This document shows, piece after piece, positions 41,501 to 60,875 of a stretch of DNA of 64,000 bases (positions are counted from its first letter, which is position 1; every line of letters begins with the position of its first letter). Position numbers and translations under genes: made by a program. The stretch spans positions 1 to 64,000 of the forward strand of contig SVQZ01000010.1 of assembly GCA_015065105.1 (NCBI GenBank), written 5' to 3'. The notes beneath the pieces were generated by a model. The model saw only the letters and a program-made list of their open reading frames with translations. It searched no databases and was not told where the DNA came from. The stretch is from Oscillospiraceae bacterium (GTDB lineage: Bacteria; Bacillota; Clostridia; Oscillospirales; CAG-272).

Positions 41501-41796
41501 GGGTCTCCCTCACGGATACGCATGGTTCTTCTTATTTCCTTGGGTATAACAACTCTTCCGAGGTCCTCTTTTTCTCACCCTGTTGCGGTGCCCGATTCTG
41601 TCTGCGCGAACAAAGTTCGCTTGACATCATCGACCGCTGCCACTCACTCGCCTCGCTGTATCTGCCACCGGCAGCGCTCGGCTCGCTCCCCTGTTGCGCA
41701 CCCCAAGGGCACTTCCTCCGGGCGCTTTAATATATAAAAATCTCCTTGATTTACAGTTGCTGATAATAGTACCTGTAAATCAAGGGGATTTATACT
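41501..41796 (-). repeat. spoVT-5' repeat copy 1, start codon lost, carrying a 111-nt GC-rich insert (41579..41689)
   Basis: gggtctccctcacggatacgcatggttcttcttatttccttggg...atataaaaatctccttgatttacagttgctgataatagtacctgtaaatcaaggggatttatact. Confidence 0.85.
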
Positions 41797-41845
41797 ATGG
41801 GATTTGCTTTTAAAAAATATGTAATATAATTAAGTTGTTACATGT

Positions 41846-43069: not shown

Positions 43070-43178
43070 CGTTTTCCCCTTAAATCATTTATTCTTATTA
43101 TAGTTAATTTAGTCTTTATGTATTTGTTTTGTCAATTATATCACATTTTCAAAACAATTTCAACTTGTCATAGCAGCG

Positions 43179-44093
43179 TTAATATCTGCTCAATCGAATC
43201 CCGGCAAATCTTAATTCCTTATTTGAATATGAATTATACAAATTTGAAAATATATTATTAGCTTCCTCTTCAGCGAGGATAAGCCGGCTTGCTTCAGAAT
43301 AAAGAATCCCGTCTATTTTACCTTTGAGAAAGTTGCTTAACGCCATTAACAGTCTTTGTGTTCCTTCAAATTCACCGCCGAAATACTCTGCATTGATAAA
43401 ATCATATTCATAGAATGTGTTGATACATCCGGTTTCATCTATTATATATGAAACAAAGCTACCTTCGACCCACGGTTCATCCGCAAAGGGTGGCTCCTCC
43501 TGTCTTTTGACAAATATAAAGAGTTCGCCTTTGTCACCCATACAAATAATATCTCCTTTTTCAAAAGGAATAGGCAAGTCAATATACATTTGCTTGAACC
43601 AATAGTCATATTCTGTTGTACTGCCGTCCGAAAAAGACATGATCCTGTTATTCTTTACGTCGGCACAGGGGAAATGTCTTTTATCATTGTTAATGTCGAT
43701 TTTGGATATACTGCAATACTCCAATGTCAGATGATTTTTATTTATCATCTCAAAGCATTCTTCGAAGCTTTTGCAAAAGCCGATATTATGCCATCTGTGT
43801 TGACATATATAGAAAGTGTTTTCATCATCTTTAATGAGTTTGTCGATACATCGGTTATCTGCAGCCATTTGTTTCTTCAGTATTTCATGAAGAGTATAAT
43901 CACTTCCTTTTAACGGTATATCCTCGGTGGTAGCGATGATCTCTTGCCATGCCTCATGCTTTTCGGACAAGCTTGCTTTGTTGCTCGAATAAATAATACC
44001 GGCTTTCTGCACCGGGGTCAAATCGTAACCGATACAATCAATATGAAATGCTATAGATGAGGAATTGATAAAATAATTGATGTTTTTTAACAT
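43179..44093 (-). CDS. Hypothetical protein, cassette 2 cargo
   Basis: 304-aa ORF preceded by aaaggagatcatt; no family recognised. Confidence 0.6.
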   Translation of the reverse strand: MLKNINYFINSSSIAFHIDCIGYDLTPVQKAGIIYSSNKASLSEKHEAWQEIIATTEDIPLKGSDYTLHEILKKQMAADNRCIDKLIKDDENTFYICQHRWHNIGFCKSFEECFEMINKNHLTLEYCSISKIDINNDKRHFPCADVKNNRIMSFSDGSTTEYDYWFKQMYIDLPIPFEKGDIICMGDKGELFIFVKRQEEPPFADEPWVEGSFVSYIIDETGCINTFYEYDFINAEYFGGEFEGTQRLLMALSNFLKGKIDGILYSEASRLILAEEEANNIFSNLYNSYSNKELRFAGIRLSRY

Positions 44094-44227
44094 AATGATC
44101 TCCTTTATATTTATTCCGTGGTGCCTTATTATCGTATACTCCCCCTATCTTGGTCCGTATATCAAAAAATAACAAGGGAAAAGAATAAATAAGGCAGGTG
44201 TTTGCTTGTTTGGTATTCCTCTGCAAT

Positions 44228-44320
44228 AGGGACAGCGGAGTGAATTTCACTCCGCTATTGTTCTTTTAACCACACTATGTATCGCCAAACAAAACCTGTC
44301 GATTGGTGTCGGTGAATAAC
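44228..44320. repeat. Relic cassette end: terminator plus conserved tail without the AbrB part
   Basis: gacAGCGGAGTGaattTCACTCCGCT...cacactatgtatcgccaaacaaaacctgtcgattgg; minus strand encodes DRFCLAIHSVVKRTIAE*. Confidence 0.75.
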
Positions 44321-44386
44321 TCTTGACATTTTAGGGAACATTTATTATAATAATGCTACGAAAAAGTTCCCTAAAGGAGTTCTGAT

Positions 44387-45325
44387 ATGAATAATTACCC
44401 TAAAATACAAGAGTTGCTGCAACAACGTGCTGATTTATATGCTCGACTCAACTTATTGGCTTATGACGGTACACCTGAAATTAAAGAAAATAAAAGCGGC
44501 AAATATTTATATGTTCGCCGTCGTGTCGGTAGCCGTGTAACCTCTACGTATGTTGATGTATATTCAGATACATTATATCAACTTTTACTTCGCAACAATG
44601 CCGAGGCAAAGGATTTAAGAAAGCGAATCCGTAAGGTTGAAAAATCACTTGCCGAAATAGGGTTTACTGAAAACGAATTATCACCCGCCGTAATGCTCAA
44701 CCTTGATTTTGCACGGATCAATATGAAATTGTCTATTTACGAGCAGGCTGTTTTGGAGGGTGTTGCAACATCTTTCCCGCAAACTGAAGATATTATTGAA
44801 AATGGTAAAGTTAACGGCGTTACTGCAAGCGATGTTCAAAAGATACTCAACCTTAAACACGCTTGGGAGTTTATTTTAGATAAAGATGTTTTACAGGTAA
44901 AAAGCGATTATTCTATCCTTTGCCACATCGCCAAACTTGTAAACGAAGGCTTTTTTGAAAACGGCGGCAGAATACGCGGAGTACCTGTTACAATTGGCGG
45001 TACCTCTTATATTCCACCATTTCCTATTGAAACTGTCGTTATTGAAAATATTTTATCTATCATAAATGAAAATGCGACGCCGATAGACACCGCTATTGAA
45101 CTATGTTTATACTGTATGAAAGCACAAATTTTCAATGACGGCAACAAACGAGCCTCTGTGATTTTTGCAAATCATTATCTGATTTCTAAGGCGGGCGGTT
45201 TGCTTGTCATTCCTGAATCACAAGTACCCGAATTTAAGCGATTACTAATTGGATATTACGAAGATAAGGACAATGGAGAAATCAAAGCGTTTTTAAAAGA
45301 AAACTGTCACAGAAACTTCAGATAG
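44387..45325 (+). CDS. Fic/DOC-family protein with substituted catalytic His
   Basis: AQIFNDGNKRASVIFANHYLI (Fic motif HPFxDGNKR with H to Q) and upstream AVLEGVATSFPQTEDIIENGKV; TTGACA-17-TATAAT promoter upstream. Confidence 0.75.
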   Translation: MNNYPKIQELLQQRADLYARLNLLAYDGTPEIKENKSGKYLYVRRRVGSRVTSTYVDVYSDTLYQLLLRNNAEAKDLRKRIRKVEKSLAEIGFTENELSPAVMLNLDFARINMKLSIYEQAVLEGVATSFPQTEDIIENGKVNGVTASDVQKILNLKHAWEFILDKDVLQVKSDYSILCHIAKLVNEGFFENGGRIRGVPVTIGGTSYIPPFPIETVVIENILSIINENATPIDTAIELCLYCMKAQIFNDGNKRASVIFANHYLISKAGGLLVIPESQVPEFKRLLIGYYEDKDNGEIKAFLKENCHRNFR

Positions 45326-45342
45326 CATAACGATAGGTGAAT

Positions 45343-45519
45343 TCACCTCTCGTTATATCTTTCCACCAAACTATGTATAGCCAAACAAAACCTGTCGAAA
45401 AGTGTCAATGTTGTATGTGACGGGTCTCCCTCACGGATACGCATTGTTCTTCTGATTTCTTTGGGGATAACTACACGTCCCAGGTCATCTATTCTTCTTA
45501 CTATTCCTGTTGCTTTCAT
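45343..45519 (-). CDS. 58-aa mini-SpoVT: AbrB domain plus conserved cassette tail (copy 2)
   Basis: MKATGIVRRIDDLGRVVIPKEIRRTMRIREGDPSHTTLTLFDRFCLAIHSLVERYNER*; sigma-G-like promoter and RBS conserved. Confidence 0.55.
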   Translation of the reverse strand: MKATGIVRRIDDLGRVVIPKEIRRTMRIREGDPSHTTLTLFDRFCLAIHSLVERYNER

Positions 45520-45584
45520 ATATAAAAATCTCCTTGATTTACAGTTGCTAATAATAGTATCTGTAAATTGGGGGGATTTATACT
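45422..45584 (-). repeat. spoVT-5' repeat copy 2
   Basis: gggtctccctcacggatacgcattgttcttctgatttctttggggataactacacgtcccaggtcatctattcttcttactattcctgttgctttcatatataaaaatctcc... Confidence 0.9.
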
Positions 45585-45647
45585 GAATGGGTTTACTTTT
45601 TGCAAGATTAATAGTATAATAATTAAAAACAAAAATGCGGTGTCAAA

Positions 45648-46475
45648 ATGAAGAATTTAGAATACGAAGACTATATAAAAAACAAACTGAATGAACCAAA
45701 CACATATTCTCAGGGATATGTTGCTTTTTTGGATATGATGGGATTTCAAAAATTGTGTAAAGACGAAAGCTGTGAAAGAATAAAAGCAATAATAGATGAT
45801 ATTGAATTATTTAAATATAAATTCATCAATTCCTTTTCAAAATTAGTTATTCCTGAAGATATTATCTCACAAACAACTGTGAAAATAATATCGGACAGCA
45901 TTATAGTTACAGCACCTGATAACTATTATGGGCTTTTGTATATTTTGTATTTCACCGCAACTTTACATATGATATTGTTGGATTGTGATGTGCTTTTACG
46001 TGGTGGGATAGAAAAAGGCGATTTTTTTGTGACAGAAACTACAATTTTTGGTCCTGCGGTTATTGACTCTTACGATATAGAAAATTCAACCACTTATCCT
46101 CGTGTTCAGATTTCCGCAAGTATTATTGACGATTTAAGAAAAATCGGCTTTGAAAAGAAAAAGACGGTTGACTATTACACTGATTTAAAAAACGATAAAG
46201 ATCTCCATCTTTCAGAAATAGAAACATTTATTTGTAAAGATTTTGATGATTGTTATTTTGTGCATTACTTCAACACCATTGAAAATATCGCTTTATTTCG
46301 CAATAGCGTAAAAAAAGAAAGAATATATCATTTTATCGAAGAACAAATAAAGAAATATAAAGGAAACAAAAAACTATCATTAAAATACGGTTGGCTTCGT
46401 AATTATTACGATCATTATTTAAGCAAAAGTTTTATATCAAAGATTTCGGAGGAATTACATAATGGCAGACATTAA
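45648..46475 (+). CDS. Class III nucleotidyl cyclase-like protein (cassette cargo)
   Basis: GYVAFLDMMGFQKLC (metal Asp), VKIISDSIIVTAP (second Asp), LRGGIEKGDFFVTETTIFGPAVIDSYDIENSTTYPRVQIS (R..GI..G.....G). Confidence 0.6.
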   Translation: MKNLEYEDYIKNKLNEPNTYSQGYVAFLDMMGFQKLCKDESCERIKAIIDDIELFKYKFINSFSKLVIPEDIISQTTVKIISDSIIVTAPDNYYGLLYILYFTATLHMILLDCDVLLRGGIEKGDFFVTETTIFGPAVIDSYDIENSTTYPRVQISASIIDDLRKIGFEKKKTVDYYTDLKNDKDLHLSEIETFICKDFDDCYFVHYFNTIENIALFRNSVKKERIYHFIEEQIKKYKGNKKLSLKYGWLRNYYDHYLSKSFISKISEELHNGRH

Positions 46476-47361
46476 ACTTTTTAATATAAAGGGAAAGGTT
46501 CAAGAATACCAAAGTGGCACCGTAACACTAGAAAAAGAACTGCAAACAGTCATTGAAAACAATATGGAGACCTTTTTTGGTGTAACTTTTCTTGCTTCGG
46601 AATATCGTACTACCGACGGAGGTAGAATGGACAGTATCGGCATCGACGAAAACCATTGTCCTGTTATTTTTGAATATAAACGATCTGTGAAAGACAGCGT
46701 TATCAACCAAGGCTTATTCTATCTTAACTGGCTCCTTGACCACAAAGATAGTTTTAAGGTGCTGGTAATTGAAAAATTGGGATTAAAAGCAGCTGAAACG
46801 ATTGATTGGACGATGCCTCGTGTTATCTGTGTTGCAGGTGATTTCACAAAATATGATGAATCTGCTATAAAACAAATGAACCGAAACATCAGCTTGATTC
46901 GTTACAAGAAATTCGGTGATGATCTATTGATGTTTGAACAAATAAATGAAAATATTGCTGCAGTAATAGAAGATAATACAGCTGTTATATCCACGAAAGC
47001 AAAAAATCTCGGCAAATCATTTGCAGACCATAAAAAAGAGGCACCTTCAGCAATTTTAACTATATATGAGGATATTCGCAATTTTGTTTTAAGTTTGGGA
47101 GATGATATAACAGAGAACCAATTAAAGTTTTATGTGGCTTTCAAGAAAATCAAAAACATAGTTTGTGTTGAAATTTTTAACAACAAATTAATATTACATC
47201 TAAAGCTCGATGTAACTACAGTAGATTATGAAGAAGGTTTTACAAGAGACACTTCGGGTATCGGACATTATGCAACTGGAGATGTAGAGGTTACCATTAA
47301 AAATCGTGCTGATTATGAAAAAGCAAAAGTTCTAATTGAGCGTGCATACAACGAAAACTAA
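46462..47361 (+). CDS. NucS-like PD-(D/E)XK / DUF5655 protein (cassette cargo)
   Basis: MEKELQTVIENNMETFFGVTFLASEY-type start (LEKELQTVIENNMETFFG), GGRMDSIGIDENHCPVIFEYKRSVKDSVINQGLFYLNWL, C-terminal DUF5655-like; overlaps the cyclase-like gene by 14 nt. Confidence 0.75.
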   Translation: MADIKLFNIKGKVQEYQSGTVTLEKELQTVIENNMETFFGVTFLASEYRTTDGGRMDSIGIDENHCPVIFEYKRSVKDSVINQGLFYLNWLLDHKDSFKVLVIEKLGLKAAETIDWTMPRVICVAGDFTKYDESAIKQMNRNISLIRYKKFGDDLLMFEQINENIAAVIEDNTAVISTKAKNLGKSFADHKKEAPSAILTIYEDIRNFVLSLGDDITENQLKFYVAFKKIKNIVCVEIFNNKLILHLKLDVTTVDYEEGFTRDTSGIGHYATGDVEVTIKNRADYEKAKVLIERAYNEN

Positions 47362-47381
47362 ACTTAAAAGCGAGGTGAATT

Positions 47382-47558
47382 TCACCTCGCTTTATATCTT
47401 TCCACCACACTATGTATCGCAATACAAAACTTGTCGAAAGGTGTCAATGTTGTATCCAGAGGGTCTCCCTCACGGATACGCATTGTTCTTCTTATTTCTT
47501 TGGGGATAACTACACGTCCCAGATCATCTATTCTTCTTACAATTCCTGTTGCTTTCAT
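47382..47558 (-). CDS. 58-aa mini-SpoVT: AbrB domain plus conserved cassette tail (copy 3)
   Basis: MKATGIVRRIDDLGRVVIPKEIRRTMRIREGDPLDTTLTPFDKFCIAIHSVVERYKAR*; stop lies in the terminator hairpin. Confidence 0.55.
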   Translation of the reverse strand: MKATGIVRRIDDLGRVVIPKEIRRTMRIREGDPLDTTLTPFDKFCIAIHSVVERYKAR

Positions 47559-47622
47559 ATATAAAAATCTCCTTGATTTACAGTTGCTGATAATAGTATC
47601 TGTAAAACAAGGAGATTTATAC
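47461..47622 (-). repeat. spoVT-5' repeat copy 3
   Basis: gggtctccctcacggatacgcattgttcttcttatttctttggggataactacacgtcccagatcatctattcttcttacaattcctgttgctttcat... Confidence 0.9.
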
Positions 47623-47642
47623 GGGTGAATTTGGGCTTTATC

Positions 47643-48668
47643 TTAATTGTAATATGAAAATAACGATTTCAGAGTATCATCATATTTGTCGCTGATTTTA
47701 TACGGCATTTGTTTGTAAGCAACTGAATCGGGAAATTCTAAATTCCCGTAAGCGTACCAGTAGAACTGATTGTTTGCAACAAATACGTCGCCGTATTCTT
47801 TATATATAATTCCTTTTTCATCGTAAGCTATAACAGTCATTCTTTGCTGATTAGGAAGATATTCGCAGGTTAGATTTGAAGCAACATTTTCATCAGACAA
47901 TAAAATAAGATGTGAAAACAACTCTCCATTTATTAAAAGTTCTTTTTCATATCCGTTAGATTGCTCAAAAACGATATAAGCACTCTGCGGATTAAAATCA
48001 TTCAATAGCTTTTGATAATAACCGATTTTTGTTTCTTTAACATAAAAGTCAATGTCGTGTTCCGAACGCAAATAAACCAAATCATTATCAGGCGCACCTT
48101 GTACACTTTGTAGCGCATATTCCGAAAGCAGTTTATCTAAAAATGAACCACCGTCTAATTTTATTTCGTCAACGATTTCCTCGCCTAAACGACACGAATA
48201 TCCATTCATATCCAATGGCACGTATCGTTCTCCGTAATAAGTTAAGCAGGAAAGATCATTAGTTAGAACGGCATATGATTCGCCCTTCAACGATTGTGCA
48301 ATACCTAAAAAGATAGAAACACATAGCATACAAAAAATAATTACCGAAATTATGCATACAGTAATCAACAAACGCAAATTACGGCGTTTATCTGCTTTGG
48401 CTTGATGGCATACTGTTAAAACAGTCTTTTCCACAACTTCAACAGCTTCTTCTTTAGATAAACGATCACCGTTTAGTAGTTCATTGACAGACACGTTAAA
48501 GATGTTTGAAATTTCGGGCAAAATAGTAACGTCGGGATAACCTTTGCCTGTTTCCCACCGGGAAACGGCTTTGGCGGTTACATTTAATCTCTCGGCTAAT
48601 TTCTGTTGCGTAATACCCGATTCTTTTCGCAGTTTAGCAATGAATGCACCTGTTTCTTGCGGACTCAT
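47643..48668 (-). CDS. XRE-family HTH membrane protein (cassette cargo)
   Basis: FIAKLRKESGITQQKLAERLNVTAKAVSRWETGKGYPDVTILPEISNIFNVSVNELLNG; TM LLITVCIISVIIFCMLCVSIFLG. Confidence 0.85.
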   Translation of the reverse strand: MSPQETGAFIAKLRKESGITQQKLAERLNVTAKAVSRWETGKGYPDVTILPEISNIFNVSVNELLNGDRLSKEEAVEVVEKTVLTVCHQAKADKRRNLRLLITVCIISVIIFCMLCVSIFLGIAQSLKGESYAVLTNDLSCLTYYGERYVPLDMNGYSCRLGEEIVDEIKLDGGSFLDKLLSEYALQSVQGAPDNDLVYLRSEHDIDFYVKETKIGYYQKLLNDFNPQSAYIVFEQSNGYEKELLINGELFSHLILLSDENVASNLTCEYLPNQQRMTVIAYDEKGIIYKEYGDVFVANNQFYWYAYGNLEFPDSVAYKQMPYKISDKYDDTLKSLFSYYN

Positions 48669-48777
48669 AAAAGCACCTCACTTTCAGTCATAATTGTACC
48701 GAATAGCACAGTTTTTTCAACCTATGAATCGTGGATAAACATATTTTTATTCATTATAGCACATTTTTCTGAAAAGA

Positions 48778-48810
48778 TAAAGCGAGGTGAAATTCACCTC
48801 GCTTTTGCTC
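48778..48810. terminator. Cassette terminator
   Basis: aAAGCGAGGTGAAaTTCACCTCGCTTttgc. Confidence 0.85.
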
Positions 48811-48872
48811 TTTTTACCATACTATGTATCGCCAAACAAAACCTGTCGAAATCTGTCAATGTTGTATAAAGA

Positions 48873-49141
48873 GGATCTCCCTCACGGATACGCATTGTTC
48901 TTCTTATTTCCTTGGGGATAACTACACGTCCCAGATCATCTATTCTTCTTACCCTGTTGCGGTGCCCGATTCTGTCTGCGCGAATGTGATTCGCTTGACA
49001 TCATCGACCGCTGCCACTCGCTCGCCTCGCTGTATCTGCCACCGGCAGCGCTTGGCTCGCTCCCCTGTTGCTTTCATATATAAAAATCTCCTTGATTACA
49101 TGATACTGATAATATTATCTGTAAAACAAAGGGATTTATAC
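48873..49141 (-). repeat. spoVT-5' repeat copy 4 with the 111-nt GC-rich insert (48953..49063)
   Basis: ggatctccctcacggatacgcattg...ttcttac[cctgttgcggtgcccgattctg...gctcgctcc]cctgttgctttcatatataaaaatctcc. Confidence 0.85.
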
Positions 49142-49270
49142 GTAAATGTTTTATGCACGGTCAATAATATGAATCTAAATATATTAACATAATTTATAAT
49201 ATGTGGTACCTATTTACTTTTATTTATACTTGTGTTATTATATAATCGAGTAAACAAGGAGATTGATGAA

Positions 49271-50071
49271 ATGGTTGATATATGTTTTGGTAATACTCTA
49301 ATTAGACGAATACTAAAACTTCAAAGAGAGTGCGATTACAACAATGGACAGGAAATACCGTTTCATTTTAATTACGGCATTCTTAAAGGCGACCCTATCG
49401 ATACACAAGCGCGGATTTATGCCGAAGCCCTAAGATGCTATTATCCTGATACAGATGAGGTTGAGCAAGTTTATTGTGATACCAAGAAACGCTATGATAA
49501 TGCTATAGAATGGCTGAATTCTGTGTTGCGGGATAAAAAAACCATACGTTTATGGATCAGCAATACGGCTAATGACATTTGTAACCTTTGTTGGTTGTGC
49601 CACTATACACAAAAGTATGATCCTGTTATTTTGTTGGTGAAATGTCCCGTATGTGAAAAAGACGGTCAATCAAACACTCCCGATTTACGTAAAAGCTGGG
49701 AACAAGTTTCATCCGATGACACATTTTTAAGCGCCATAGATAGTGCTGCAGCTATGACAAAGAATGAGATTCTTTTTTATGCAATGCAATGGAAACGACT
49801 TGTCAAAGAAAATATGCCTTTGCGTGTTCTCATAGATAATTCTATAATCAGTACAACAGACGATTTTTTTGATCCAATAATATAAAAGAATATTGGATCG
49901 ACACCTGTTGTTTTGCGGGAAGTTTTAGGAGAAGTGCTAACGGAAGATTGGGGCATGTCTGTTGACTTTATTTTAAGCCGCCTTGAGAAATTCATCAGCC
50001 AAGGTGTGGTATTGGTTTGTCAGGAATCCGCAGACGGTTTTGGAGAACATAGGATAATTTGCAAAGCATAA
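49271..50071 (+). pseudogene. DUF1835/DUF3658-like protein interrupted by an in-frame TAA
   Basis: MVDICFGNTLIRRILKL...DDFFDPII-TAA(49883..49885)-KNIGSTPVVLREVLGEVLTEDWGMSVDFILSRLEKFISQGVVLVCQESADGFGEHRIICKA*; same frame continues to 50071. Confidence 0.6.
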
Positions 50072-50121
50072 AAAGGTGCTGTCTCAAATGCGATTATTTC
50101 GCATTTGAGACAGCACCTTTT
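50071..50121. terminator. Perfect 23-bp-stem terminator, left flank of the kinase/GTPase block
   Basis: AAAAGGTGCTGTCTCAAATGCGAttattTCGCATTTGAGACAGCACCTTTT. Confidence 0.85.
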
Positions 50122-50406
50122 AAACTTTACAGGCATTTGTTCTGTTTCGTGTGAGTCGTTTGCATTGCAGAAAGGGGGGATTTGCTGTGCCCGGCTACGC
50201 TTTTCCGCGAAAAGCCTCTCTAACGTACTTTGTATGCTGAACAGAGCGATTCCATTCCGCTTTTGCTGTATATCGGATAAATATGCTGTTTTTTGTGCGA
50301 AAAATATATTTGATTTCGTTGTATATACAGTAAGATAGAAATTTGGAAATATTGTTGAAATTCATCAATTTTCAGTTTATATTATATGTTTTTTAGACAA
50401 ACTTAC

Positions 50407-50434
50407 TTGATTTTTATAACATTTATGTTATAAT
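50407..50434 (+). promoter_or_regulatory. Putative promoter of the eight-gene operon
   Basis: TTGATT-16 nt-TATAAT. Confidence 0.5.
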
Positions 50435-50505: not shown

Positions 50506-51522
50506 ATGCGTAATTTTATAATTTCAGCGGAAGATATTCTTAATGCAAAAAAAACAAGCTTAGGCAGTTTGTCTTTTTTGAAAAATTATTCTCAGGCAGG
50601 AAACACGTTGACCAGATTAAATTCTGCAATTGTGATGGGTGCCGATGAATTCAAAGCTGATTCAAGAAACGAGAACGGTTATTGCGGCTTACAGGAATAT
50701 TATGAATTGCTGAAATATAATTTTGACCGTTGTTTTACATATGAGGAAGCTTGTGTTGCAGGTTCTCATGCTGTGTTTTCTTTTGTTTATAACGATACAC
50801 AAGGCTGGAAGTGCCTGAATGATGCAGAACTACCGATTAATGAATTCGACGCCTTGAATATTTTCAAGGAATTATTGCTTATTATTAAGGAATATAGTCA
50901 GAAGGTACAGATTCATAATAATGGATACAGACCCATGAGCTTTATATGCCGCGACAGTGTATATATAAGAGAGGATATAAATGGCGATAAAGAATTACGT
51001 TTGTTGCCGTTGCCGTATAATTACAGATCTGATTATGCGGGCTTGCCGAGAAAAGCGGATGATGTTTACACCGATGTTTATATGGCAGCATATCTGTTTT
51101 TAGATTTAAAATATCCCGAAGGAAGAGATTTCAACGAAGCGGATGAGGCAGATGCATTGGCAGAAAGATGTTTATCGCCTTTTCCTCAGCGTCGTATGGC
51201 TTTAGACGAGTTGATAGACCGATTGTCTCAGATTTCCATGCCGGATGATCCCGGGATTAAAAATTGTTCTGAATCTTCAGAAGAAGAAACGGCAAGTAAA
51301 GAAGAGACGGTTTACACTAACGTACATTTTGATGAAGATGAAGTTGGAACACCTAAATCGCGAACAAGGGTAAATATTGACAAGAAAATACAAAGCGGAG
51401 CTAAAAAAATAAACAAGGGTAAAAAGAAGGTTCGTAAGGCATTTGATGATATGAGAGAACAGTTTGACAAGCGCTTTTCAACCGAAAAAGGCGACGCGTA
51501 TGAAGATAAAAACGATGATTAA
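50506..51522 (+). CDS. Pseudokinase-like protein with basic C-terminal tail
   Basis: RPMSFICRDSVYIRED...DVYTDVYMAAYLFLDLKYPEGRDFNEADEADALAERCLSPFPQRRMALDELIDRLSQ resembles a kinase C-lobe (DVxxxxxxxYxxL...CLxxxPxxR) without HRD or DFG motifs. Confidence 0.5.
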   Translation: MRNFIISAEDILNAKKTSLGSLSFLKNYSQAGNTLTRLNSAIVMGADEFKADSRNENGYCGLQEYYELLKYNFDRCFTYEEACVAGSHAVFSFVYNDTQGWKCLNDAELPINEFDALNIFKELLLIIKEYSQKVQIHNNGYRPMSFICRDSVYIREDINGDKELRLLPLPYNYRSDYAGLPRKADDVYTDVYMAAYLFLDLKYPEGRDFNEADEADALAERCLSPFPQRRMALDELIDRLSQISMPDDPGIKNCSESSEEETASKEETVYTNVHFDEDEVGTPKSRTRVNIDKKIQSGAKKINKGKKKVRKAFDDMREQFDKRFSTEKGDAYEDKNDD

Positions 51523-51546
51523 TTCTTAGGAAAGGTATAATATCGT

Positions 51547-53427
51547 ATGAATAACGAAAACATTGATGTAAAGGCTCCTAACGTTACAGATGCAACTGTA
51601 GAACGCAGAACTCACGTTAGTTTTACTTTTAATAATAAAAAGTATTATTTCGAGGTAGAAAAGGAATTACATAGGGAAGGAAGCGCTAAACGTATCTATA
51701 TCGGTTGTTTTCGCAGATCAGGTAACGGATCGATTCCTAATGACAGTCTGCCTACAGGTACAGAATATGATAAAGAGTATTGTCTTAAAACGGCATATGT
51801 AACCCTGCCCTTATCAATATCTCATCCTCAGAACAGACATTTTTGGGATTTCTTTCCCTTCAAGGGCGACAATTTGAGAGAGGTAATTGCTTTAAATGAT
51901 GATGCTTTTCAAATGTCGCAGGAATTGAAAAACGGTGGAATAAAACCGTATGATACAAATGCAGATCCGGATTCATTGAGGAATTTTGACTGTGCGGTTT
52001 TAGAACCGGTTTATTCTCCCTTCCGTATAGAGGATTTTCCTACCTATTTCGATAAAATTGATTGTATGCTTCAGATCATTAAAGGCTTGAAGCAGTTAAT
52101 GGGCGATGAAACTCTGAGAGAATACAGAGTTATTGCTCACAGAGATATGAAATTTAATAACGTCGTTGTGCAACACTGTGAGGACGGTACCAGAAGAATA
52201 CGTTTGATAGACTTTCCTACGGTAAAGTTTAATTTTCCTGATACTCAGGGTAATGATAATCATACCTATCTTGGCTTTGTTTCTCTCAGTAATACTGCAC
52301 CCGAGGATGTGATTGCTAATTACAGAGTATCCGCAAAAACGGATGTGTTTGCGCTTGGAGCAATGTTAGCGGAAATTTTCGGTGTATGGAGTTATGATGG
52401 TGTAAATAATCCTTTGAGGCTTTTGTTCGACTGTGTTCCCTATATTCGTACGGATATTGCCGAAGATTGCCGTATATTTTATACCAAAATGAATGAACTT
52501 TACCCATATAGCGGAGCGGATGGGTATAGCTGGTTGGAGAGCGCATTAAATGCAAACGAAAAGAATGCGGTATGGGATAATATAGATAACAGCCTTCGTA
52601 TATGGATACGTACGCTTTTCCGCAGAGCTGTAGTTATTAATCCCGGACGCAGGATCTCTTTGGATGTATTTGAGAGCGAATTGAAAAAAATTAACAAACA
52701 GATTCAAACTTATCAGAACGATTATTCGAAAGTAGGTAATGATCACCGTATATCTTACCTTTTGCTTGATACATCAAATATCAAAAGCTATGTTCATATA
52801 TACAGCGATGTTATCAACGATATTATAAATCAGAATAAAGGTTGTAAGCTTTATGTGATGCCTTATGGAGCATACCATAGTTCGAAAGTGTTGACAGCGA
52901 ATCCCGACTCGCCGGATATATTTGATATTACCGGTGAAAACGTGATGGTGAAGCTTTCAAAATTGCAGGAAAGTGAACATTCAGAGGTCCATTTAAACGG
53001 TCTTAAAGGTGCGATGTTCGACCTGTCTTCTTATCTGAAAAACGGTACGGTACAGCATAGCTTTAGCGGAGATATTCATGTTATTGCTCCTGAATTTCCG
53101 AATGAAGGTAATATGTGTTGCTTTGAAACTCGGAGTATCGATCTGCTTGGTCAGTTAACGTCAAGGCTTCTTAACGCTGTCGATATTGTTGAGCAGTTAG
53201 ATGGATGTAATAATATATACGTTCATTCTTTCAGAGAACAAGGAAGTAGTACAGAGAATTGGTATATACCTGTATTTATTAATGCTAATAACCCTGTTAC
53301 TCTTGAAAACGAGCCTGTTAAAAGCTCACAGAGCGAAGAAACACCGGCCGTTCAGGAAACCGAAGTATTACGCAGCGGCAGAGGTTTTCATTTTATCGGC
53401 GGTACAATTATTACGCGTAAAATATAA
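51547..53427 (+). CDS. Serine/threonine protein kinase-like protein
   Basis: YCLKTAYV, YRVIAHRDMKFNNVVVQ (HRDxKxxN), RLIDFPTVKF (D of DFG), SNTAPEDVIANYRVSAKTDVFALGAMLAEIFG (APE and DxxxLG). Confidence 0.8.
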   Translation: MNNENIDVKAPNVTDATVERRTHVSFTFNNKKYYFEVEKELHREGSAKRIYIGCFRRSGNGSIPNDSLPTGTEYDKEYCLKTAYVTLPLSISHPQNRHFWDFFPFKGDNLREVIALNDDAFQMSQELKNGGIKPYDTNADPDSLRNFDCAVLEPVYSPFRIEDFPTYFDKIDCMLQIIKGLKQLMGDETLREYRVIAHRDMKFNNVVVQHCEDGTRRIRLIDFPTVKFNFPDTQGNDNHTYLGFVSLSNTAPEDVIANYRVSAKTDVFALGAMLAEIFGVWSYDGVNNPLRLLFDCVPYIRTDIAEDCRIFYTKMNELYPYSGADGYSWLESALNANEKNAVWDNIDNSLRIWIRTLFRRAVVINPGRRISLDVFESELKKINKQIQTYQNDYSKVGNDHRISYLLLDTSNIKSYVHIYSDVINDIINQNKGCKLYVMPYGAYHSSKVLTANPDSPDIFDITGENVMVKLSKLQESEHSEVHLNGLKGAMFDLSSYLKNGTVQHSFSGDIHVIAPEFPNEGNMCCFETRSIDLLGQLTSRLLNAVDIVEQLDGCNNIYVHSFREQGSSTENWYIPVFINANNPVTLENEPVKSSQSEETPAVQETEVLRSGRGFHFIGGTIITRKI

Positions 53428-53456
53428 CCTGATATAATAAATAAGGAGGAAGTATA

Positions 53457-54218
53457 GTGAATAGCTTTGAAAAGAAAAAACAAATATTGTTATCTATACA
53501 GAAAAAAGCAAAAATACTGCGTGGATATTGGGCCGTGCCGGTGCTTTTTATTATAGCCGTGGGCTTTAAGCATATTATGGGCTTATTCTCATTCGGGGAA
53601 AAATATATAGCTGATTCCTGGCCGATGCGATGGATCATAATCATATTGTGTGTATTAGTTTCAATATGGATAATTTCTGTTGCCGCCGCTTGGTTGATTG
53701 GATATTATTTGAAGAATATGCGAAAAGAGGCAGAACAAAACAAAAAAGACGGTAACGTTAAAACAAAAAAGAAAAGAGCTTCTTCCGGTTCGACCCTTAT
53801 GCTGAGTTGGTTTCAGCGTAATAAAGCGAAAAGGAATCTTAAAAGATTACAGGACGATAGTGATTATTGTTTTTTAACAGGACGTACGTCGTATATTCGT
53901 TTGCAGAATTTACATGCCGGTGATGAAAGAATACTCAAGTTAGATAATAACAGCAGAGTGTCTCAAAAATGTATTTACAAAAATTTCGGAGATTGCATGT
54001 TGACTGCCGAAAAAGTTACAGATAAAAAAGGATTCCCTCACGTGTATCTGTATTGGACGTCTGTTAGTCCCTCCAAAGAAGAGATTCGTAACGCTGAAAC
54101 CGTAGAACTTGAGCCGGATACACCGGTAGCTTTGTCGTACGGTTTAATAAATGAAAATGATAATACCGAGCGAGAAGCAGTAGTTTGTGTAATAACTTGG
54201 ATTGAAGGAGGATTATAA
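53457..54218 (+). CDS. Membrane protein of unknown function (GTG start)
   Basis: Two N-terminal TM segments, cytosolic C-terminal domain; RBS aaggagga; overlaps next start. Confidence 0.65.
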   Translation: MNSFEKKKQILLSIQKKAKILRGYWAVPVLFIIAVGFKHIMGLFSFGEKYIADSWPMRWIIIILCVLVSIWIISVAAAWLIGYYLKNMRKEAEQNKKDGNVKTKKKRASSGSTLMLSWFQRNKAKRNLKRLQDDSDYCFLTGRTSYIRLQNLHAGDERILKLDNNSRVSQKCIYKNFGDCMLTAEKVTDKKGFPHVYLYWTSVSPSKEEIRNAETVELEPDTPVALSYGLINENDNTEREAVVCVITWIEGGL

Positions 54219-55471
54219 TGTTATCTGCAGGTTATGTATTTTGTACCCGCTGCGGACGTGCAACAGCGGACGCCTATTACCATTGCGGTGAATATAACTG
54301 TTGGGTACAGTTGAAAAGAGGCATTTTTGGTAAGATTTATGCGGAGTTATATACCCCTAAACACTTGAAAAGCGATACGACCGTTGAGAGTGTGACTTAT
54401 TGTGCTCCTTCAAAGCGTACGCGTGTAAGAACACAGCATCAGATCCAGATTTCGTGTAAGCTCAGAAACGGTATAACGAGAAATGCAAATTTTACCCGCA
54501 GTTGTCCTTTTTGTGTAGGAACACATCCCGATTGGACAGGCGTTCATAATTTGATTCCCGGATTGGGAGATTATCCAACCTATGTGATAGGAATGATCGG
54601 AAACCGTACGGTTGGAAAAACCAGTTGGATAGAGTCTGTTTCGTATCCTGAAAATATAAGAAAAGTTAATTCCGGCAAGCTTCGTAACACGGGGTATTCC
54701 GGGTATATCCTCAACATTAATCAGCCGGGTGAAGCAAAGGTAAGAGCGCCTAAAGCAACCCCTTTGAATGATTCGGGCAGTACCAATATTATAAATATAT
54801 TGCGAAAAGACGAAGGAAAAAAAGTTAATGAAACAGTAGCGCAGGTATTGCTGCTTGATTTCGCGGGAGAATTGTTCAAAAGAGAAAACAGAGACGTGTA
54901 TAACAACTCGGTCAGAAGACTTTTTGACGGCAGGGACGGAGTTGAAGGCAAGGAAGGCTTTGACGGTGTGGATGGTATCATTCTGATGACAGATCCGCAG
55001 GATTATTGCTTGCAGGGCGGAATAAATGATGTCTTTAACAGTGTAAACGGAACATCCGCTTTGTTTACACACGTTCCGATTGCATTTGTAATGAATAAAA
55101 TCGATCTTATGTTTAACGATCCTCCTGAACAGCACTTGGGCGAAAATCCTTCATATCCTTGTGTTCCCTTGTTTTCCGAAATTACTTTTAATAATCTTCA
55201 GGGAGAATGGATGTATCAAAAGGACGTTATGGTCAAACGTATTGATCTGGAGAATGCTTTGCTGAAAAAGATACTACCTCTTATAGCTCATACCGAAACT
55301 TATGCAAAGTGTGCGGGATTTATGGTTAAATCAACTTCGGTAACCCCTGACACTGAAGCTAACGAAGAGCAAGAGCTGCGTGTTAATTACTCCGATACTC
55401 TTAATCTTATGGATCCGCTTTTGTGGATTCTTAACGAGCTTGACATTTTCCCTATTGAGAATCTTAAATAA
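54218..55471 (+). CDS. P-loop GTPase with zinc-ribbon-like N-terminus (double-GTPase-like)
   Basis: CTRCGRATADAYYHC...CPFC; GMIGNRTVGKTSWIES (Walker A), LLDFAGELF (switch II-like), AFVMNKIDLM (NKxD). Confidence 0.75.
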   Translation: MLSAGYVFCTRCGRATADAYYHCGEYNCWVQLKRGIFGKIYAELYTPKHLKSDTTVESVTYCAPSKRTRVRTQHQIQISCKLRNGITRNANFTRSCPFCVGTHPDWTGVHNLIPGLGDYPTYVIGMIGNRTVGKTSWIESVSYPENIRKVNSGKLRNTGYSGYILNINQPGEAKVRAPKATPLNDSGSTNIINILRKDEGKKVNETVAQVLLLDFAGELFKRENRDVYNNSVRRLFDGRDGVEGKEGFDGVDGIILMTDPQDYCLQGGINDVFNSVNGTSALFTHVPIAFVMNKIDLMFNDPPEQHLGENPSYPCVPLFSEITFNNLQGEWMYQKDVMVKRIDLENALLKKILPLIAHTETYAKCAGFMVKSTSVTPDTEANEEQELRVNYSDTLNLMDPLLWILNELDIFPIENLK

Positions 55472-55504
55472 CATATTTTATGATTCCTAAGTTGGAGGTT
55501 TTGA

Positions 55505-57094
55505 TTGAATAAATTTATTATATATTCCGGAGGTAAGGATGGGTATTGTTTATACGATTCTCATCCTGAGTTTCCGGAGGAATACAGAGATCTTATTGAG
55601 GATCTATACGTCAATAAAAAAATCGTTGATCTTTCTGGAACATTAGGAGGAGAGCGCTGTTACCGTTTTGCTCCTTTAGGTGACGGTTACGTTTTTTCCG
55701 TTATTTATAAAGACTGTTACAGCAACCAGGATAAGCGCGGTTTTTATGCAACCGTAAATTGGGTGTTTACTTCGCAGGAAGCGGACAGCATTTATTATTC
55801 CGATTTTCGTAACAGTTTTAACCAATACATAAAAGATTCCGACCGTATATTGACGGAAAGGGGTTATACTATACCGGAAATGAAGGATAACGTTGTTACA
55901 AAAGCAATGTTGATCAATGATGATATACAAAAAGCTGTATTCAGTTCCATGTACAGTGCATGCAGAGTTGCAAGCATGCAAGATAATATGCTGATGCATC
56001 AGGTTTTGATGGGACGGAATGAACAACAGGGTCTTTTTGGAGACTTGTTTGTGATGTATGATATTTTTCCTCATATTTTACGTAAACGTTTATCTTTTTA
56101 TATCGGTTTCTCCTCAGTATCGGAAACAAACGGAGTTGCGTTGGCGATCACAAGAAATGAAGCTTTGCAATATATAGTTTCAAGCGGAAATTATGATGGT
56201 TCGATGGCAATTTCGAGAGCTATACTTTTAAATGACAGATTGACTGACACAAGTTTTTTCCCTGAAACAGTCGAAGGGTATATTTCCTTGCCCAAGGAAC
56301 AGCGATTAAGAATCAGTCAGATTTTTTCTTATTCAACCAATGAGTTTGGTTACCTGGAATATATTAAGGCTGTTATTCAGCAAGGAAACATGATATATGA
56401 CCGGAGGTTAAATGATTTATTGGGCGAAGACGCGTATGCTGACTTTGCATTTACCGAAGAGGAAAAAGCAAAAATTTGGCTTGCTTCCAATTCTCAGCTT
56501 ATAAATAGCGAGATAGATATACGAGGGTTAAACGATCCTGTAGAAACAGCTGAAAATACTGATGATCTTAAAAAGAACGCAGTAATTAAAGGAAAACACA
56601 AAAAGAAAAAGAAAAAAGATAATCGTACCAAGCAGTCCCAAAACGTCACAAAAGAGGCGGATAAATCTAAAACTCTTCAAAACAACAAATTTGATAAGGG
56701 TTCGTCACGTTATAGGACAAAAACAGAGAATGAGGCAGAAACCAGACAACCTGAAACTGCCCAAAAATCAGAGGGCGGTTCCCCAAAACTAAAGAACGGT
56801 TATGAAAGAAAAAAAGTTGATATCAGTTTTGAGATCAACGTTGTTCGGAGAGTATTGCCGGTATTCTTTGTTTTCGTTTTCTTTTCTGTATTATTCCTTT
56901 TATTCTCCGGTATAGTATATGCTATCGGTGTTTATTTGATTGCTGCTTTACCCAAACCGTGGTCGTTGTTGGCTTATGCTGTTCAGATTGGTGCAACTGT
57001 ATTTATTTCCATGTTGGGCGGATATCTGATTTTTTCCTATATAGGAAAACTTATTCGTCATAGACAAAGATTAGTTAAAAAGCCAAAGGAGTGA
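55505..57094 (+). CDS. GTPase-associated-like protein with C-terminal two-TM region (TTG start)
   Basis: MNKFIIYSGGKDGYCLYDSHPEFPEEYRDLIEDL...GDGYVFSVIYKDCYSNQDKRGFYATVNWVF; Lys-rich linker; two C-terminal TM helices. Confidence 0.55.
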   Translation: MNKFIIYSGGKDGYCLYDSHPEFPEEYRDLIEDLYVNKKIVDLSGTLGGERCYRFAPLGDGYVFSVIYKDCYSNQDKRGFYATVNWVFTSQEADSIYYSDFRNSFNQYIKDSDRILTERGYTIPEMKDNVVTKAMLINDDIQKAVFSSMYSACRVASMQDNMLMHQVLMGRNEQQGLFGDLFVMYDIFPHILRKRLSFYIGFSSVSETNGVALAITRNEALQYIVSSGNYDGSMAISRAILLNDRLTDTSFFPETVEGYISLPKEQRLRISQIFSYSTNEFGYLEYIKAVIQQGNMIYDRRLNDLLGEDAYADFAFTEEEKAKIWLASNSQLINSEIDIRGLNDPVETAENTDDLKKNAVIKGKHKKKKKKDNRTKQSQNVTKEADKSKTLQNNKFDKGSSRYRTKTENEAETRQPETAQKSEGGSPKLKNGYERKKVDISFEINVVRRVLPVFFVFVFFSVLFLLFSGIVYAIGVYLIAALPKPWSLLAYAVQIGATVFISMLGGYLIFSYIGKLIRHRQRLVKKPKE

Positions 57095-57702
57095 GTTGTT
57101 TGAATTATAATATTGTAGTTTGGACAGGCTTGATAGCTGTGTTGTTGATCTTTATTCAGTTATACAATGAAACAAGGGCTCAAAACCGACAAATACGTAA
57201 GATGTTTGAACACGTGTTTATCAGAGTTTACGGTATAAAGGATAATGAGATATCTCCTCTTGCTGTGCCGGTCCGTGATGAATCGATCGTTGAGTATCCT
57301 CTTGTTTCTACAAATATAACGTGCGGCAGAAAAACCGATCAAACACGTTTCAAGGTGGATATGCCTATAGATACTGAGGATATAACCTTAAAGGAGACTG
57401 CTGCGGAGTTTTGTATAGAACCGTATGAAAATAGTCTGAAGCTTTATATCCGTCCCTTGGATCAAGACGTAATATGGTTTGGCGGTCTCGGAAAATCTTC
57501 TAAAGAAGCGGTTTGCATAATGAAAAATCCTGTAAAGGATGAGAACGGTGAGTGGATCTTACCTCCGCCTCCGGCTGTGTTTAATGATAAGATGCCGGAA
57601 TATTATTCGCCAACAAACCATTATCCCTCTTTGAAAATAGGAGATGTTGTTGTGATAGGTCAAACCAAATTTGTTATAGGCTATGATAAGGATGGTGTAT
57701 AA
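57091..57702 (+). CDS. Membrane-anchored FHA-like protein (GTG start)
   Basis: N-terminal TM; STNITCGRKTDQTRFKVDMP...SLKIGDVVVIGQTKFVIGYD resembles FHA GR and closing GDxIxIG strands; degenerate. Confidence 0.5.
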   Translation: MSCLNYNIVVWTGLIAVLLIFIQLYNETRAQNRQIRKMFEHVFIRVYGIKDNEISPLAVPVRDESIVEYPLVSTNITCGRKTDQTRFKVDMPIDTEDITLKETAAEFCIEPYENSLKLYIRPLDQDVIWFGGLGKSSKEAVCIMKNPVKDENGEWILPPPPAVFNDKMPEYYSPTNHYPSLKIGDVVVIGQTKFVIGYDKDGV

Positions 57703-59225
57703 TGAAAAACAAATCAAAAAGAACTACAAGGGGTAACGGTTTTTATGTACAGATCATCGCGGCTGTTTTCGTTGCGATTTTGAGTATTTATATCGGTGCC
57801 CTGCTTCCTGCTATCACCGAATCCCGCATTGAGGAGTGTAATGAACTCATTCCCGTGCTTACTCAAGAATTGGAAGAGGCTGAAGCTTCCAAAGCATCAA
57901 AAAAGGTTATTGAAGAAAAAAGAACCGAGATTGATAAATACGAAACCAGGCTTGAAATGTTAGGGGAAAGAGATATATCTTACAGTATCTCTATGATATT
58001 TCTTGTGTGCGTGTTGATATTCGGTGCGGTGATATCACAGATAAAAACGGCTTCTTTTCCAAAGGATTTAAGCTACACGTCAAATATCGAATATGTCAAG
58101 TATTATCCGATGTTCAGCGCGCCCTTTGCTGCAACAGTAATGCTTTTGGCGATTGGTGTTACATATCAAGGGGTAATATTTTATAGAATATCGGATTTGG
58201 TATTTTTGATTCTTGCGGTGCTTGTAGGGGCAGCAGTATTTATATTATACCGACATATTCCCTACCTTTCCTCTAAGCTGGCGCAACGCCGTTTGTTCAA
58301 GAGTGCTGAAAGAAAATGGATTAAATCGTTTTCGTGGGATGATTTGCTTTTTGTAATACCTGCGGTATTGATTATAATATTACTATGCTCCGTTGTTTTT
58401 TTTGGTTGCACCATTAACGGTGCTAAATTATGGCTCAAAATATTCGGAATTACAGTTCAGCCGAGCGAATTTGTTAAGGTATTAGCCATTATAATGTGTG
58501 CCAATTCTTACGGTAAAATGTGGAGAGCGATTTTCTCAACAGTAATCTGTTGTTTTACTATTCTTGCATTTTTATACTTGAAAGATATGGGTGCTGCTAT
58601 TATAATTTTTGCAATGATAATGGTAATGCTTTTCTTGATGCTTGATAACAAAAAGACGTTCTCTCTGATCGACAACAAGAAATTAGTTATTATAGTGATG
58701 CTGTTATCGGTTTGTTTCTTTGCTTTGGCATTATCTATGTTTGATTACGCTGGTGAACGTTTTGCCAATACGGGATCTGCCATGGAGAAAGGCGGCCAAC
58801 AGGCTCAGATCATTAAAGCAATGATATATGGTGGTCTTGATGGTCTTGGTGTCGAGAAATCATCTCATATTATAAACATTTTTGCTGTTGACAGCGATAT
58901 GGCTATTGCGGGTATTACTGCTGTTTTCGGAATCGGAATGTTAGCAATTGTCATGCTTTGTTATGCGGTTATCATTGTGATACCGATACGTCGATATGCA
59001 GTTTATAAATCCTTCTACTTTTTATCTGCTCAAGTATCGGTTACTATATTGGTTCAGGTTTTACTTAACGCTCTCGGTGCTATAGACGTGCTTCCGTTTA
59101 CCGGAATAGTTGCCCCGTTTTTATCCAGCGGCGGATCGGCATTAGTATCGTTCTGTGCTATGATAGGCTTGGTTTTGGCAACCTTACATCCTGTTGTTAA
59201 ACCTTTGGAGGTGAATAAGCCTTGA
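57702..59225 (+). CDS. FtsW/RodA/SpoVE-family peptidoglycan glycosyltransferase
   Basis: INGAKLWLKIFGITVQPSEFVKVLAIIMCA, LKDMGAAIIIFAMIMVMLFL, LPFTGIVAPFLSSGGSALVSF. Confidence 0.92.
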   Translation: MKNKSKRTTRGNGFYVQIIAAVFVAILSIYIGALLPAITESRIEECNELIPVLTQELEEAEASKASKKVIEEKRTEIDKYETRLEMLGERDISYSISMIFLVCVLIFGAVISQIKTASFPKDLSYTSNIEYVKYYPMFSAPFAATVMLLAIGVTYQGVIFYRISDLVFLILAVLVGAAVFILYRHIPYLSSKLAQRRLFKSAERKWIKSFSWDDLLFVIPAVLIIILLCSVVFFGCTINGAKLWLKIFGITVQPSEFVKVLAIIMCANSYGKMWRAIFSTVICCFTILAFLYLKDMGAAIIIFAMIMVMLFLMLDNKKTFSLIDNKKLVIIVMLLSVCFFALALSMFDYAGERFANTGSAMEKGGQQAQIIKAMIYGGLDGLGVEKSSHIINIFAVDSDMAIAGITAVFGIGMLAIVMLCYAVIIVIPIRRYAVYKSFYFLSAQVSVTILVQVLLNALGAIDVLPFTGIVAPFLSSGGSALVSFCAMIGLVLATLHPVVKPLEVNKP

Positions 59226-60634
59226 AAAAGAATATAATTTTTACTCCTGAAAAAGAACGGGATTCAAGTGTGATTATTGAAGATATAGATACTTCTTATA
59301 ATAATTTAGATAACCGCGGTGCCATTAAACGTGAACGAATTCATAGAGAAGCAAAATTCGTCATTATGGCATTGTTGCTTGTGGTTTCCGTATTGACGGG
59401 AACGCTTTACAAGATGATGACATGTTCTTCCTATATAACCCGTGAAGAATTATTAAACTATACAACAGTATCTTCGGTGATGACCGACCGTTTCGGAAAC
59501 AAGATATATACTGACGGTAAGGTTAGTAATTATCCTTTGTATGGAAATGTGGTTGGCTGCGGTGAGCAGATACATAATTCTTTGTTATATAGATACTCGG
59601 ATGTGTTGACCCAAAGTGAAATAAACCCCGTTTACGGAGATTCTTCATTGGAGACCGAACCCAGGGTGTTAAAAACCACCCTGTTATCCGAGGAATCGTT
59701 ACAGGAGATTCTTGATCTTTTCGGTGGACGTAACGGATGCTGTTTTGCGTATAATTATGAAACCGGCGAGGTATATACAGCCATTACTGCTCCTTATTTC
59801 TCTCCCGATATAGCTGACCCTACTTATATTAACAGATGCTTTGATTCATTATATATTCCCGGATCTACAATGAAGATCATTACAGCTGCATTGGCTGTGG
59901 ATCAGGGGATAGATGTTAGTAAAGTGGAATATACCTGCGAAGAAAGTTTTACTTTAAACGACGGAAATAAGATTAACTGTACAGCATATCACGGCAAGAT
60001 AGATTTTTCCACTGCTATAGGAAGAAGCTGTAACTGTTATTTTGCTCAGTTGATTACTGATCTGGATCTTAATAAAGCATTGGAAAGCTTGGACAAAATG
60101 GGCTTTGCTGTAAACGGAGAATCCAAGGATAGCAGTATGATGGACGGAATAACCATTAAGACGCCTTCTACCGTAGTGGCCAATACTTCCAATTTTAGAG
60201 ATGTCTGGGGCCTTATCGGACAGGGTGATTCACTTGTTAATCCTGTTTATATGGCGCAGGCAGCTGCTGCAATTGTAAATAACGGAAAAGCGGCTAAGCC
60301 TTATTTAGTATCTTCGATAATTAATCCGAATCATTCGGACGAGGTTATTTATCAGTCCGAAACAAAAATGACGAGGGTATTATCTTCCAAAACCGCTGAC
60401 AAGACAGCGGAGTTCTGGAAAAAAGCGGTAGATGAATTGTATTATTCAGGTCACGCCATGAGTGATTTGATATCTTATGCTAAAACGGGTACTGCTCAAC
60501 AGGGTGACGGTACAGAAAATAAATTACTCGTTGGAGTCAGCAAATCTACTAAAACTGCATTTTATATTGTAGTGGAGGGCGGCGGAGTTGATCCGATGGA
60601 AATTGCTAACAAGCTTATTTGTCTTGTACCTTAA
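59222..60634 (+). CDS. PbpA-like class B penicillin-binding protein transpeptidase (TTG start)
   Basis: YIPGSTMKIITAALAVDQG (SxxK), GRSCNCYFAQL (SxN), SYAKTGTAQQGDG (KTG); single N-terminal TM. Confidence 0.9.
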   Translation: MKKNIIFTPEKERDSSVIIEDIDTSYNNLDNRGAIKRERIHREAKFVIMALLLVVSVLTGTLYKMMTCSSYITREELLNYTTVSSVMTDRFGNKIYTDGKVSNYPLYGNVVGCGEQIHNSLLYRYSDVLTQSEINPVYGDSSLETEPRVLKTTLLSEESLQEILDLFGGRNGCCFAYNYETGEVYTAITAPYFSPDIADPTYINRCFDSLYIPGSTMKIITAALAVDQGIDVSKVEYTCEESFTLNDGNKINCTAYHGKIDFSTAIGRSCNCYFAQLITDLDLNKALESLDKMGFAVNGESKDSSMMDGITIKTPSTVVANTSNFRDVWGLIGQGDSLVNPVYMAQAAAAIVNNGKAAKPYLVSSIINPNHSDEVIYQSETKMTRVLSSKTADKTAEFWKKAVDELYYSGHAMSDLISYAKTGTAQQGDGTENKLLVGVSKSTKTAFYIVVEGGGVDPMEIANKLICLVP

Positions 60635-60637: not shown

Positions 60638-60688
60638 AAAAGGTGCTGTCTCAAATGCGATTATTTCGCATTTGAGACAGCACCTTTT
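60638..60688. terminator. Identical 23-bp-stem terminator, right flank of the block
   Basis: Same 51-nt sequence as 50071..50121. Confidence 0.85.
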
Positions 60689-60875
60689 AAACTTTATAGG
60701 CATTTGCGCCATTTCGTGTGAGTTGTTTACTGCAGGGAATGGAGCGAGATTCGGCGCGCCCGGCGCGCTTTTTTAATTTATAGGAAATTGCTACACTTCG
60801 GGCACTGAAGAAACAAGCTTATGTAAGGTTCACACCCGATCATCGGTGCGGGCCGGCGCCCGCTTTTTTAATTAA

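Follow-up and report, generated by a model that had tools for sequence, protein, structure and literature searches.

GAP1-N2/DO-GTPase2 systems are a family predicted to act in biological conflict (Kaur, Burroughs, Iyer and Aravind 2020, eLife 9:e52696, PMC7159879; what is attributed to these authors here and below refers to the main text of their paper). The known themes of the family are a tubulin pair with vWA, HSP70 with GrpE, and a kinase with PP2C and vWA; the GAP1-N2 protein is encoded directly downstream of the DO-GTPase and has C-terminal transmembrane (TM) helices, and a role close to the membrane or the cell wall has been inferred (PMC7159879). That main text makes no mention of FtsW, RodA, SEDS or penicillin-binding proteins (PBPs); no published description of a combination of GTPase, kinase and cell-wall enzymes was found, and GAP1-N2 was found named in one paper (PMC7159879). 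A second point of comparison is the actinobacterial locus pstP-rodA-pbpA-pknA-pknB, where a SEDS gene is followed by a class B PBP gene and accompanied by a Hanks-type kinase (PMC6554272). Here, I describe an eight-gene operon in the gut-type genome of an Oscillospiraceae bacterium (CAG-272, Clostridia; assembly GCA_015065105.1) found in positions 1-64,000 of contig SVQZ01000010.1, the whole stretch of 64,000 nucleotides (nt) being referred to as the window. Judged by its gene content, the operon is a new, fourth theme of the known GAP1-N2/DO-GTPase2 family and not a new category, and it probably constitutes a switch system with a dedicated peptidoglycan synthase as its output module.

The operon (50506-60634, + strand) comprises eight intact, co-directional open reading frames (ORFs), as read from the ORF list, whose start and stop codons overlap or abut across all eight genes, the intergenic distances from gene 1 to gene 8 being, in order, 24, 29, -1, 33, -4, -1 and -4 nt. 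This agrees with a preliminary description of the same DNA, which had reported eight same-strand ORFs with overlapping or nearly abutting ends and the lack of a PP2C-type phosphatase, none being present within the block. The operon encodes an active-type kinase, a GTPase, a SEDS (FtsW/RodA) protein, a class B PBP and four small or unassigned proteins, as listed below with lengths in amino acids (aa).

50506..51522, + strand: gene 1, 338 aa, soluble, a pseudokinase according to the preliminary description (no Pfam family over the cut-off)
51547..53427, + strand: gene 2, 626 aa, Hanks-type kinase without TM segment, its C-terminal 230 aa without recognised fold (Pfam, hhalign, motifs)
53457..54218, + strand: gene 3, 253 aa, two TM segments and a cytosolic domain (TM prediction; no Pfam family)
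54218..55471, + strand: gene 4, 417 aa, DO-GTPase2 by sequence comparison (hhalign profile comparison, family motifs)
55505..57094, + strand: gene 5, 529 aa, GAP1-N2-like, with a C-terminal TM hairpin (collinear hhalign matches, motif, position)
57091..57702, + strand: gene 6, 203 aa, one TM segment and a beta-rich domain (no Pfam family)
57702..59225, + strand: gene 7, 507 aa, SEDS (FtsW/RodA family) with an extra N-terminal region (PF01098, 6.9e-30)
59222..60634, + strand: gene 8, 470 aa, class B PBP (PF00905, 5.3e-35)

Gene 4 carries the P-loop GNRTVGKTS, the stretch LLLDFAGE (in which a conserved Glu comes after the acidic residue of Walker B) and NKID, together with putative N-terminal zinc ribbons of CxxC type (CTRC, HCGEYNC, CPFC) and a C-terminal DPLLW, the counterpart of the EPLLW-type motif of the family, in invariant alignment columns. 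Compared by hhalign with a profile of 31 DO-GTPase2s that was built without the window sequence, it gave a probability of 98.8%, an E-value of 4.4e-17 and a score of 127.9 over 273 columns, the maximum score of 40 shuffles serving as null being 25.4. In Pfam, PF19993 (DO-GTPase2) is its sole match, at 12.4 bits and below the cut-off, the gathering score being 27. By these comparisons the membership of gene 4 in DO-GTPase2, as a divergent member, is established at the level of sequence; the preliminary description had correctly seen a P-loop GTPase with GNRTVGKTS and NKID, and had missed its DO-GTPase2 identity.

Directly downstream of the DO-GTPase gene, after the 33-nt gap, gene 5 aligns in hhalign with the N-terminal profile of GAP1 over two local stretches (residues 9-36 and 181-198) of identical offset and has, at residue 188, an LPxxLRxxLSF-type motif that a multiple alignment places in register with GAP1; elsewhere the motif occurs in 11 of the 362 ORFs of related loci, all 11 being GAP1 genes. 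As regards the three-domain N-M-C architecture of GAP1-N2, the protein has 529 aa with a low-complexity linker and C-terminal TM helices, and its structure model, with a predicted local distance difference test (pLDDT) score of 49.5, is unreliable and too poor for a structure search. Since its place downstream of a DO-GTPase and its terminal TM helices fit the account of GAP1-N2 given by Kaur et al., and since the motif matches agree, gene 5 is very probably a divergent, shortened GAP1 of type N2; it is termed GAP1-like, and not a member, because it falls outside the GAP1-N2 family model. Genes 4 and 5 together make the operon a GAP1-N2/DO-GTPase2 system as predicted from motifs, profiles and gene order. 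The GTPase with its associated protein, which the preliminary description had placed in one operon, is thereby retained, the associated 529-aa protein being GAP1-like.

The resemblance to the systems of Kaur et al. lies in a DO-GTPase2 with putative zinc-ribbon motifs, a downstream GAP1-like protein with C-terminal TM helices, several TM proteins and, as in one of the themes, a kinase (PMC7159879). The operon differs from them in having a SEDS protein and a class B PBP, in being devoid of tubulin, HSP70/GrpE, PP2C and a recognised vWA domain, and in a short GAP1 that lies beyond the Pfam model. It matches none of the known themes, for no tubulin or HSP70 is encoded nearby, and the kinase is present with PP2C absent and vWA not detected; a vWA domain in the C-terminus of gene 2, considered as a candidate, received no support from Pfam or profile comparison.

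The two cell-wall enzymes anticipated by the preliminary description, FtsW/RodA and a class B PBP, are both there with intact active-site motifs. Gene 7 matches FtsW in the PDB (8bh1, 3.4e-10), and the Asp in its VDSDMAIA aligns with the Asp of HTDFIFA (E. coli FtsW D297 / RodA D262), which I take to be the catalytic Asp of SEDS proteins; a loss of this residue, with Glu in its place (AMEKGG), was ruled out, as the alignment with E. coli FtsW/RodA identifies the Asp of HTDFIF as the catalytic one, and its counterpart is retained. Gene 8 has the three transpeptidase motifs SxxK, SxN and KTG (STMK215, SCN269, KTG421), and its PDB matches include SpoVD and penicillin-binding protein A. Like FtsW-FtsI and RodA-PBP2, the pair thus joins a SEDS family protein having the catalytic Asp to an SxxK/SxN/KTG transpeptidase, but the SEDS protein has an extra N-terminal region, the PBP is short, and both lie outside the dcw/mre clusters. 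Besides this pair the host genome holds three other transpeptidases and just one other SEDS, and the pair is therefore an addition to, and not, the housekeeping divisome.

Gene 2 is a kinase, as the preliminary description had it from HRDMKFNN, DFP and APE: Pfam Pkinase is matched at 3.6e-9, and the catalytic residues are complete, comprising HRDMKFNN, the D of DFP, APE and the N-lobe Lys in YCLK. Against the kinases of two related loci (see below) and PknB-type kinases hhalign gives 97.4%, and a single-sequence search retrieved PknB-type kinases only; the protein has neither a TM segment nor a PASTA part. The remaining proteins are less readily placed. The pseudokinase character claimed for gene 1 is neither confirmed nor excluded, its kinase profile match not exceeding that of shuffles and Pfam giving no match. 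Gene 3 occupies the position where other systems have an FNIII-type gene, and no match to those genes was obtained. For gene 6, described as an FHA-like TM protein, the TM segment is present, while FHA is neither confirmed nor excluded by a lack of Pfam FHA match and a model of pLDDT 40.7, unusable for structure search.

Searches with the DO-GTPase2 profile retrieved about 50 loci from Bacillota and some Actinomycetota, and 51 including the window were scored uniformly; some of the stretches end at contig ends, so that gene counts are lower bounds. Tubulin genes are present in most of these loci and HSP70 in some. Three have SEDS genes, namely the window, G037 and G547, and kinases are confined to exactly the same three, none of which has tubulin or HSP70; by chance such an overlap is expected once in 20,825. 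The joint presence of kinase, GTPase with associated protein and SEDS/PBP asserted in the preliminary description thus holds for the window and recurs, as regards kinase and SEDS, in two further Clostridia, from two GTDB families both differing from that of the window. GTPase homologues away from FtsW/PBP genes, which the same description had regarded as telling against it, are found in 48 of the 50 other loci, and the two with such genes also have the kinase.

G547 (SVKB01000001.1, Oscillospiraceae bacterium SIG450; L061+L067) encodes a DO-GTPase2, a gene in GAP1 position, an F5/8C protein, a kinase, a 493-aa protein, a SEDS protein and a class B PBP; G037 (JAFYQP010000065.1, Clostridia bacterium RGIG7332; L026) encodes a DO-GTPase2, a GAP1, an F5/8C protein, a PP2C, a kinase, an FHA-type protein (a weak match, 8.7e-4, just under the Pfam cut-off), a 204-aa protein and a SEDS protein. 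The window shares with them an operon that contains the DO-GTPase2, GAP1, kinase and SEDS genes and, between these, a gene for an FHA-type or unassigned protein; with G547 it also shares the PBP. Both differ from it in their TM-bearing kinases, in a TM protein that ends in an F5/8 type C (NADase_transloc-like) domain (L061:13583-15406, L026:5573-7471), missing from the window, and in a Cys-rich, zinc-ribbon-like insert in the second half of the SEDS protein (L067:4522-6165, L026:114-1649), which the window SEDS lacks; G037 differs further by its PP2C. A six-taxon tree separates the SEDS proteins of the three loci, with 99% support, from the host's own FtsW and from FtsW/RodA of E. coli, on long branches and at identities of 22-30%. 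The system was absent from the relatives sampled within the families of G547 and G037 and within the order of G547. Many tubulin-theme loci (L112-L143) end with a protein of 450-840 aa for which 7-15 TM segments are predicted and Pfam gives no family; such TM-rich proteins, tried as SEDS candidates, are not SEDS by Pfam.

The product of the operon is most likely a kinase- and GTPase-gated, membrane-bound peptidoglycan synthase, the direct nature and the sign of the gating being what I infer. At the membrane, gene 4, the DO-GTPase with putative zinc ribbons, and gene 5, its GAP1-like and membrane-anchored partner, would form a nucleotide-dependent switch, to which the cytosolic kinase (gene 2) would add a second input by phosphorylation; genes 3 and 6, small membrane proteins with cytosolic domains, may act as adaptors to the SEDS/PBP pair, and once the switch is on, the SEDS glycosyltransferase (gene 7) and the class B transpeptidase (gene 8) would polymerise and cross-link glycan locally. 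Several observations weigh against such a reading. Gene 4 is highly divergent, single-sequence searches of 394 order-level genomes giving no homologue above noise (the match L006 is a collagen-like phage tail region), and searches of plasmids, viral contigs and genome contigs gave no match. Gene 5 has no Pfam match, its full-length profile comparison with GAP1 is not significant, and it measures 529 aa against the usual 700-1000 aa of GAP1. G037 has no PBP, the gene after its SEDS gene, at the contig end, reading as an ABC-2 permease. Finally, identity (22-26%) brings the window's SEDS and PBP no nearer to their counterparts in the other two loci than to the host's own FtsW and PBP, so that separate recruitment of SEDS/PBP, or long-branch attraction in the tree, is possible.

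The surroundings of the operon include three further features.

50071..50161: left boundary, 91-nt repeat with a perfect hairpin of 23-bp arms (direct repeat D6)
50407..50434, + strand: promoter-like TTGATT-16-TATAAT with extended -10 (consensus match)
60638..60728: right boundary, second copy of the hairpin repeat, terminator-like (93% identical to 50071-50161)

The promoter proposed in the preliminary description is present as a sequence, whereas such matches across the region (39 found versus 35 expected) show no excess over chance. The perfect hairpin core occurs within the window at 50071 and 60638 only, and two copies framing the operon are consistent with a self-contained unit. That the repeat is a duplication made by insertion is unproven, because its tail belongs to an intergenic repeat that is genus-specific and dispersed (TTTATAGGxAATTxCxxCATTTCGTGTGAGT...; window copies at 50071-50161, 60638-60728 and 20609-20688), which also adjoins GH123 in a congener (L152). 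GC content is 0.36-0.40 in the block, 0.33-0.37 in the left flank and 0.43 in the right flank. In five of five congeners the adjacent GdpP-like gene and its GH123 neighbour are retained without the operon beside them (the contig of G002 ends there), and the operon is therefore accessory. To its left, an array of small cassettes (39892-49192) lies beside an intact spoVT, with four further copies of the spoVT 5' untranslated region and first ~28 codons (41429, 45321, 47360, 48772); each copy precedes a shared tail, and the copies divide single genes or gene pairs (UDG-like, Fic, DUF5655, an XRE regulator, unknowns). The array looks like the outcome of repeated site-specific insertion at spoVT with regeneration of its 5' end; no recombinase gene was recognised within it.

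Among other explanations, the one that survives best is that of an anti-invader system, in which the GTPase/GAP1/kinase core senses a phage or intruder and the SEDS/PBP pair, as effector, reinforces, seals or lethally distorts the wall. Kaur et al. place GAP1-N2 among conflict systems (PMC7159879), the operon is rare, sporadic and absent at the same junction in congeneric genomes, it adjoins the accessory-cassette array with its Fic, UDG-like and DUF5655 genes, and the best PADLOC matches of the gene 2 kinase are defence kinases. Yet no GAP1-N2 system is shown to have a defence function in the text of Kaur et al. (PMC7159879), SEDS and PBP are constructive enzymes, and beyond the kinase PADLOC matches gene 1 only, weakly (mad6, E=0.0046). 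By its chemistry the pair would suit reinforcement, repair or morphogenesis of the envelope as well as it suits conflict, and an anti-invader function is regarded as rather unlikely, though far from negligible.

The actinobacterial loci suggest an ordinary growth operon of pkn/fha/rodA/pbpA type, controlled by the kinase and carrying the GTPase and its neighbour as passengers. The SEDS-then-class B PBP order and the Hanks kinase are indeed shared with pstP-rodA-pbpA-pknA-pknB-fha (PMC6554272), and to that extent the pkn-type match with an added GTPase put forward in the preliminary description stands. However, the window kinase is without TM segment or PASTA, there is no phosphatase, FHA is unproven, a GTPase and a GAP1-like protein are added, the operon is not conserved within the genus, congeners being without it, and two other lineages likewise combine DO-GTPase, GAP1, kinase and SEDS. 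The pkn locus is a less apt starting point; family descriptions exist already for GTPase and GAP1 (PMC7159879), and the operon is rather a GAP1-N2/DO-GTPase2 system with a kinase/SEDS/PBP module, and a mere growth operon appears improbable.

An antibiotic bypass, in which wall stress would induce, through the kinase, a PBP of low affinity together with a SEDS partner of its own, is more doubtful still: the accessory class B PBP is partly similar to PBP2a/PBP5-type low-affinity enzymes and its location is insular, but resemblance of this sort goes with the transpeptidase fold in general, neither a MecR/BlaR-like nor a PASTA sensor is present, and the GTPase pair is left unexplained. That a DO-GTPase system and a SEDS/PBP pair came to lie side by side by accident, in an island rich in cassettes, as the island-like GC and repeats nearby and a SEDS not clearly grouped by identity with those of the other loci might suggest, is very improbable given start and stop codons that overlap or abut through eight genes and a combination common to all three kinase-bearing loci.

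GAP1-N2/DO-GTPase2 systems have a wide distribution among Bacillota and Actinomycetota, and the one paper found on them predicts conflict functions. A switch linked to an enzyme pair of known chemistry makes peptidoglycan synthesis a measurable handle on GAP1-N2 function, and the SEDS/PBP theme suggests that the tubulin theme be re-read as related to the cytoskeleton or the septum. Along the same line, it is conceivable, if tentative and on balance doubtful, that DO-GTPase2/GAP1-N2 represents a general class of bacterial GTPase switches steering local wall or septum building, by way of tubulin-type proteins in some loci and of SEDS/PBP here, where the switch would control its own synthase under a kinase. 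Were a kinase and a GTPase to act jointly on SEDS and PBP, wall synthesis would be controlled in a new manner.

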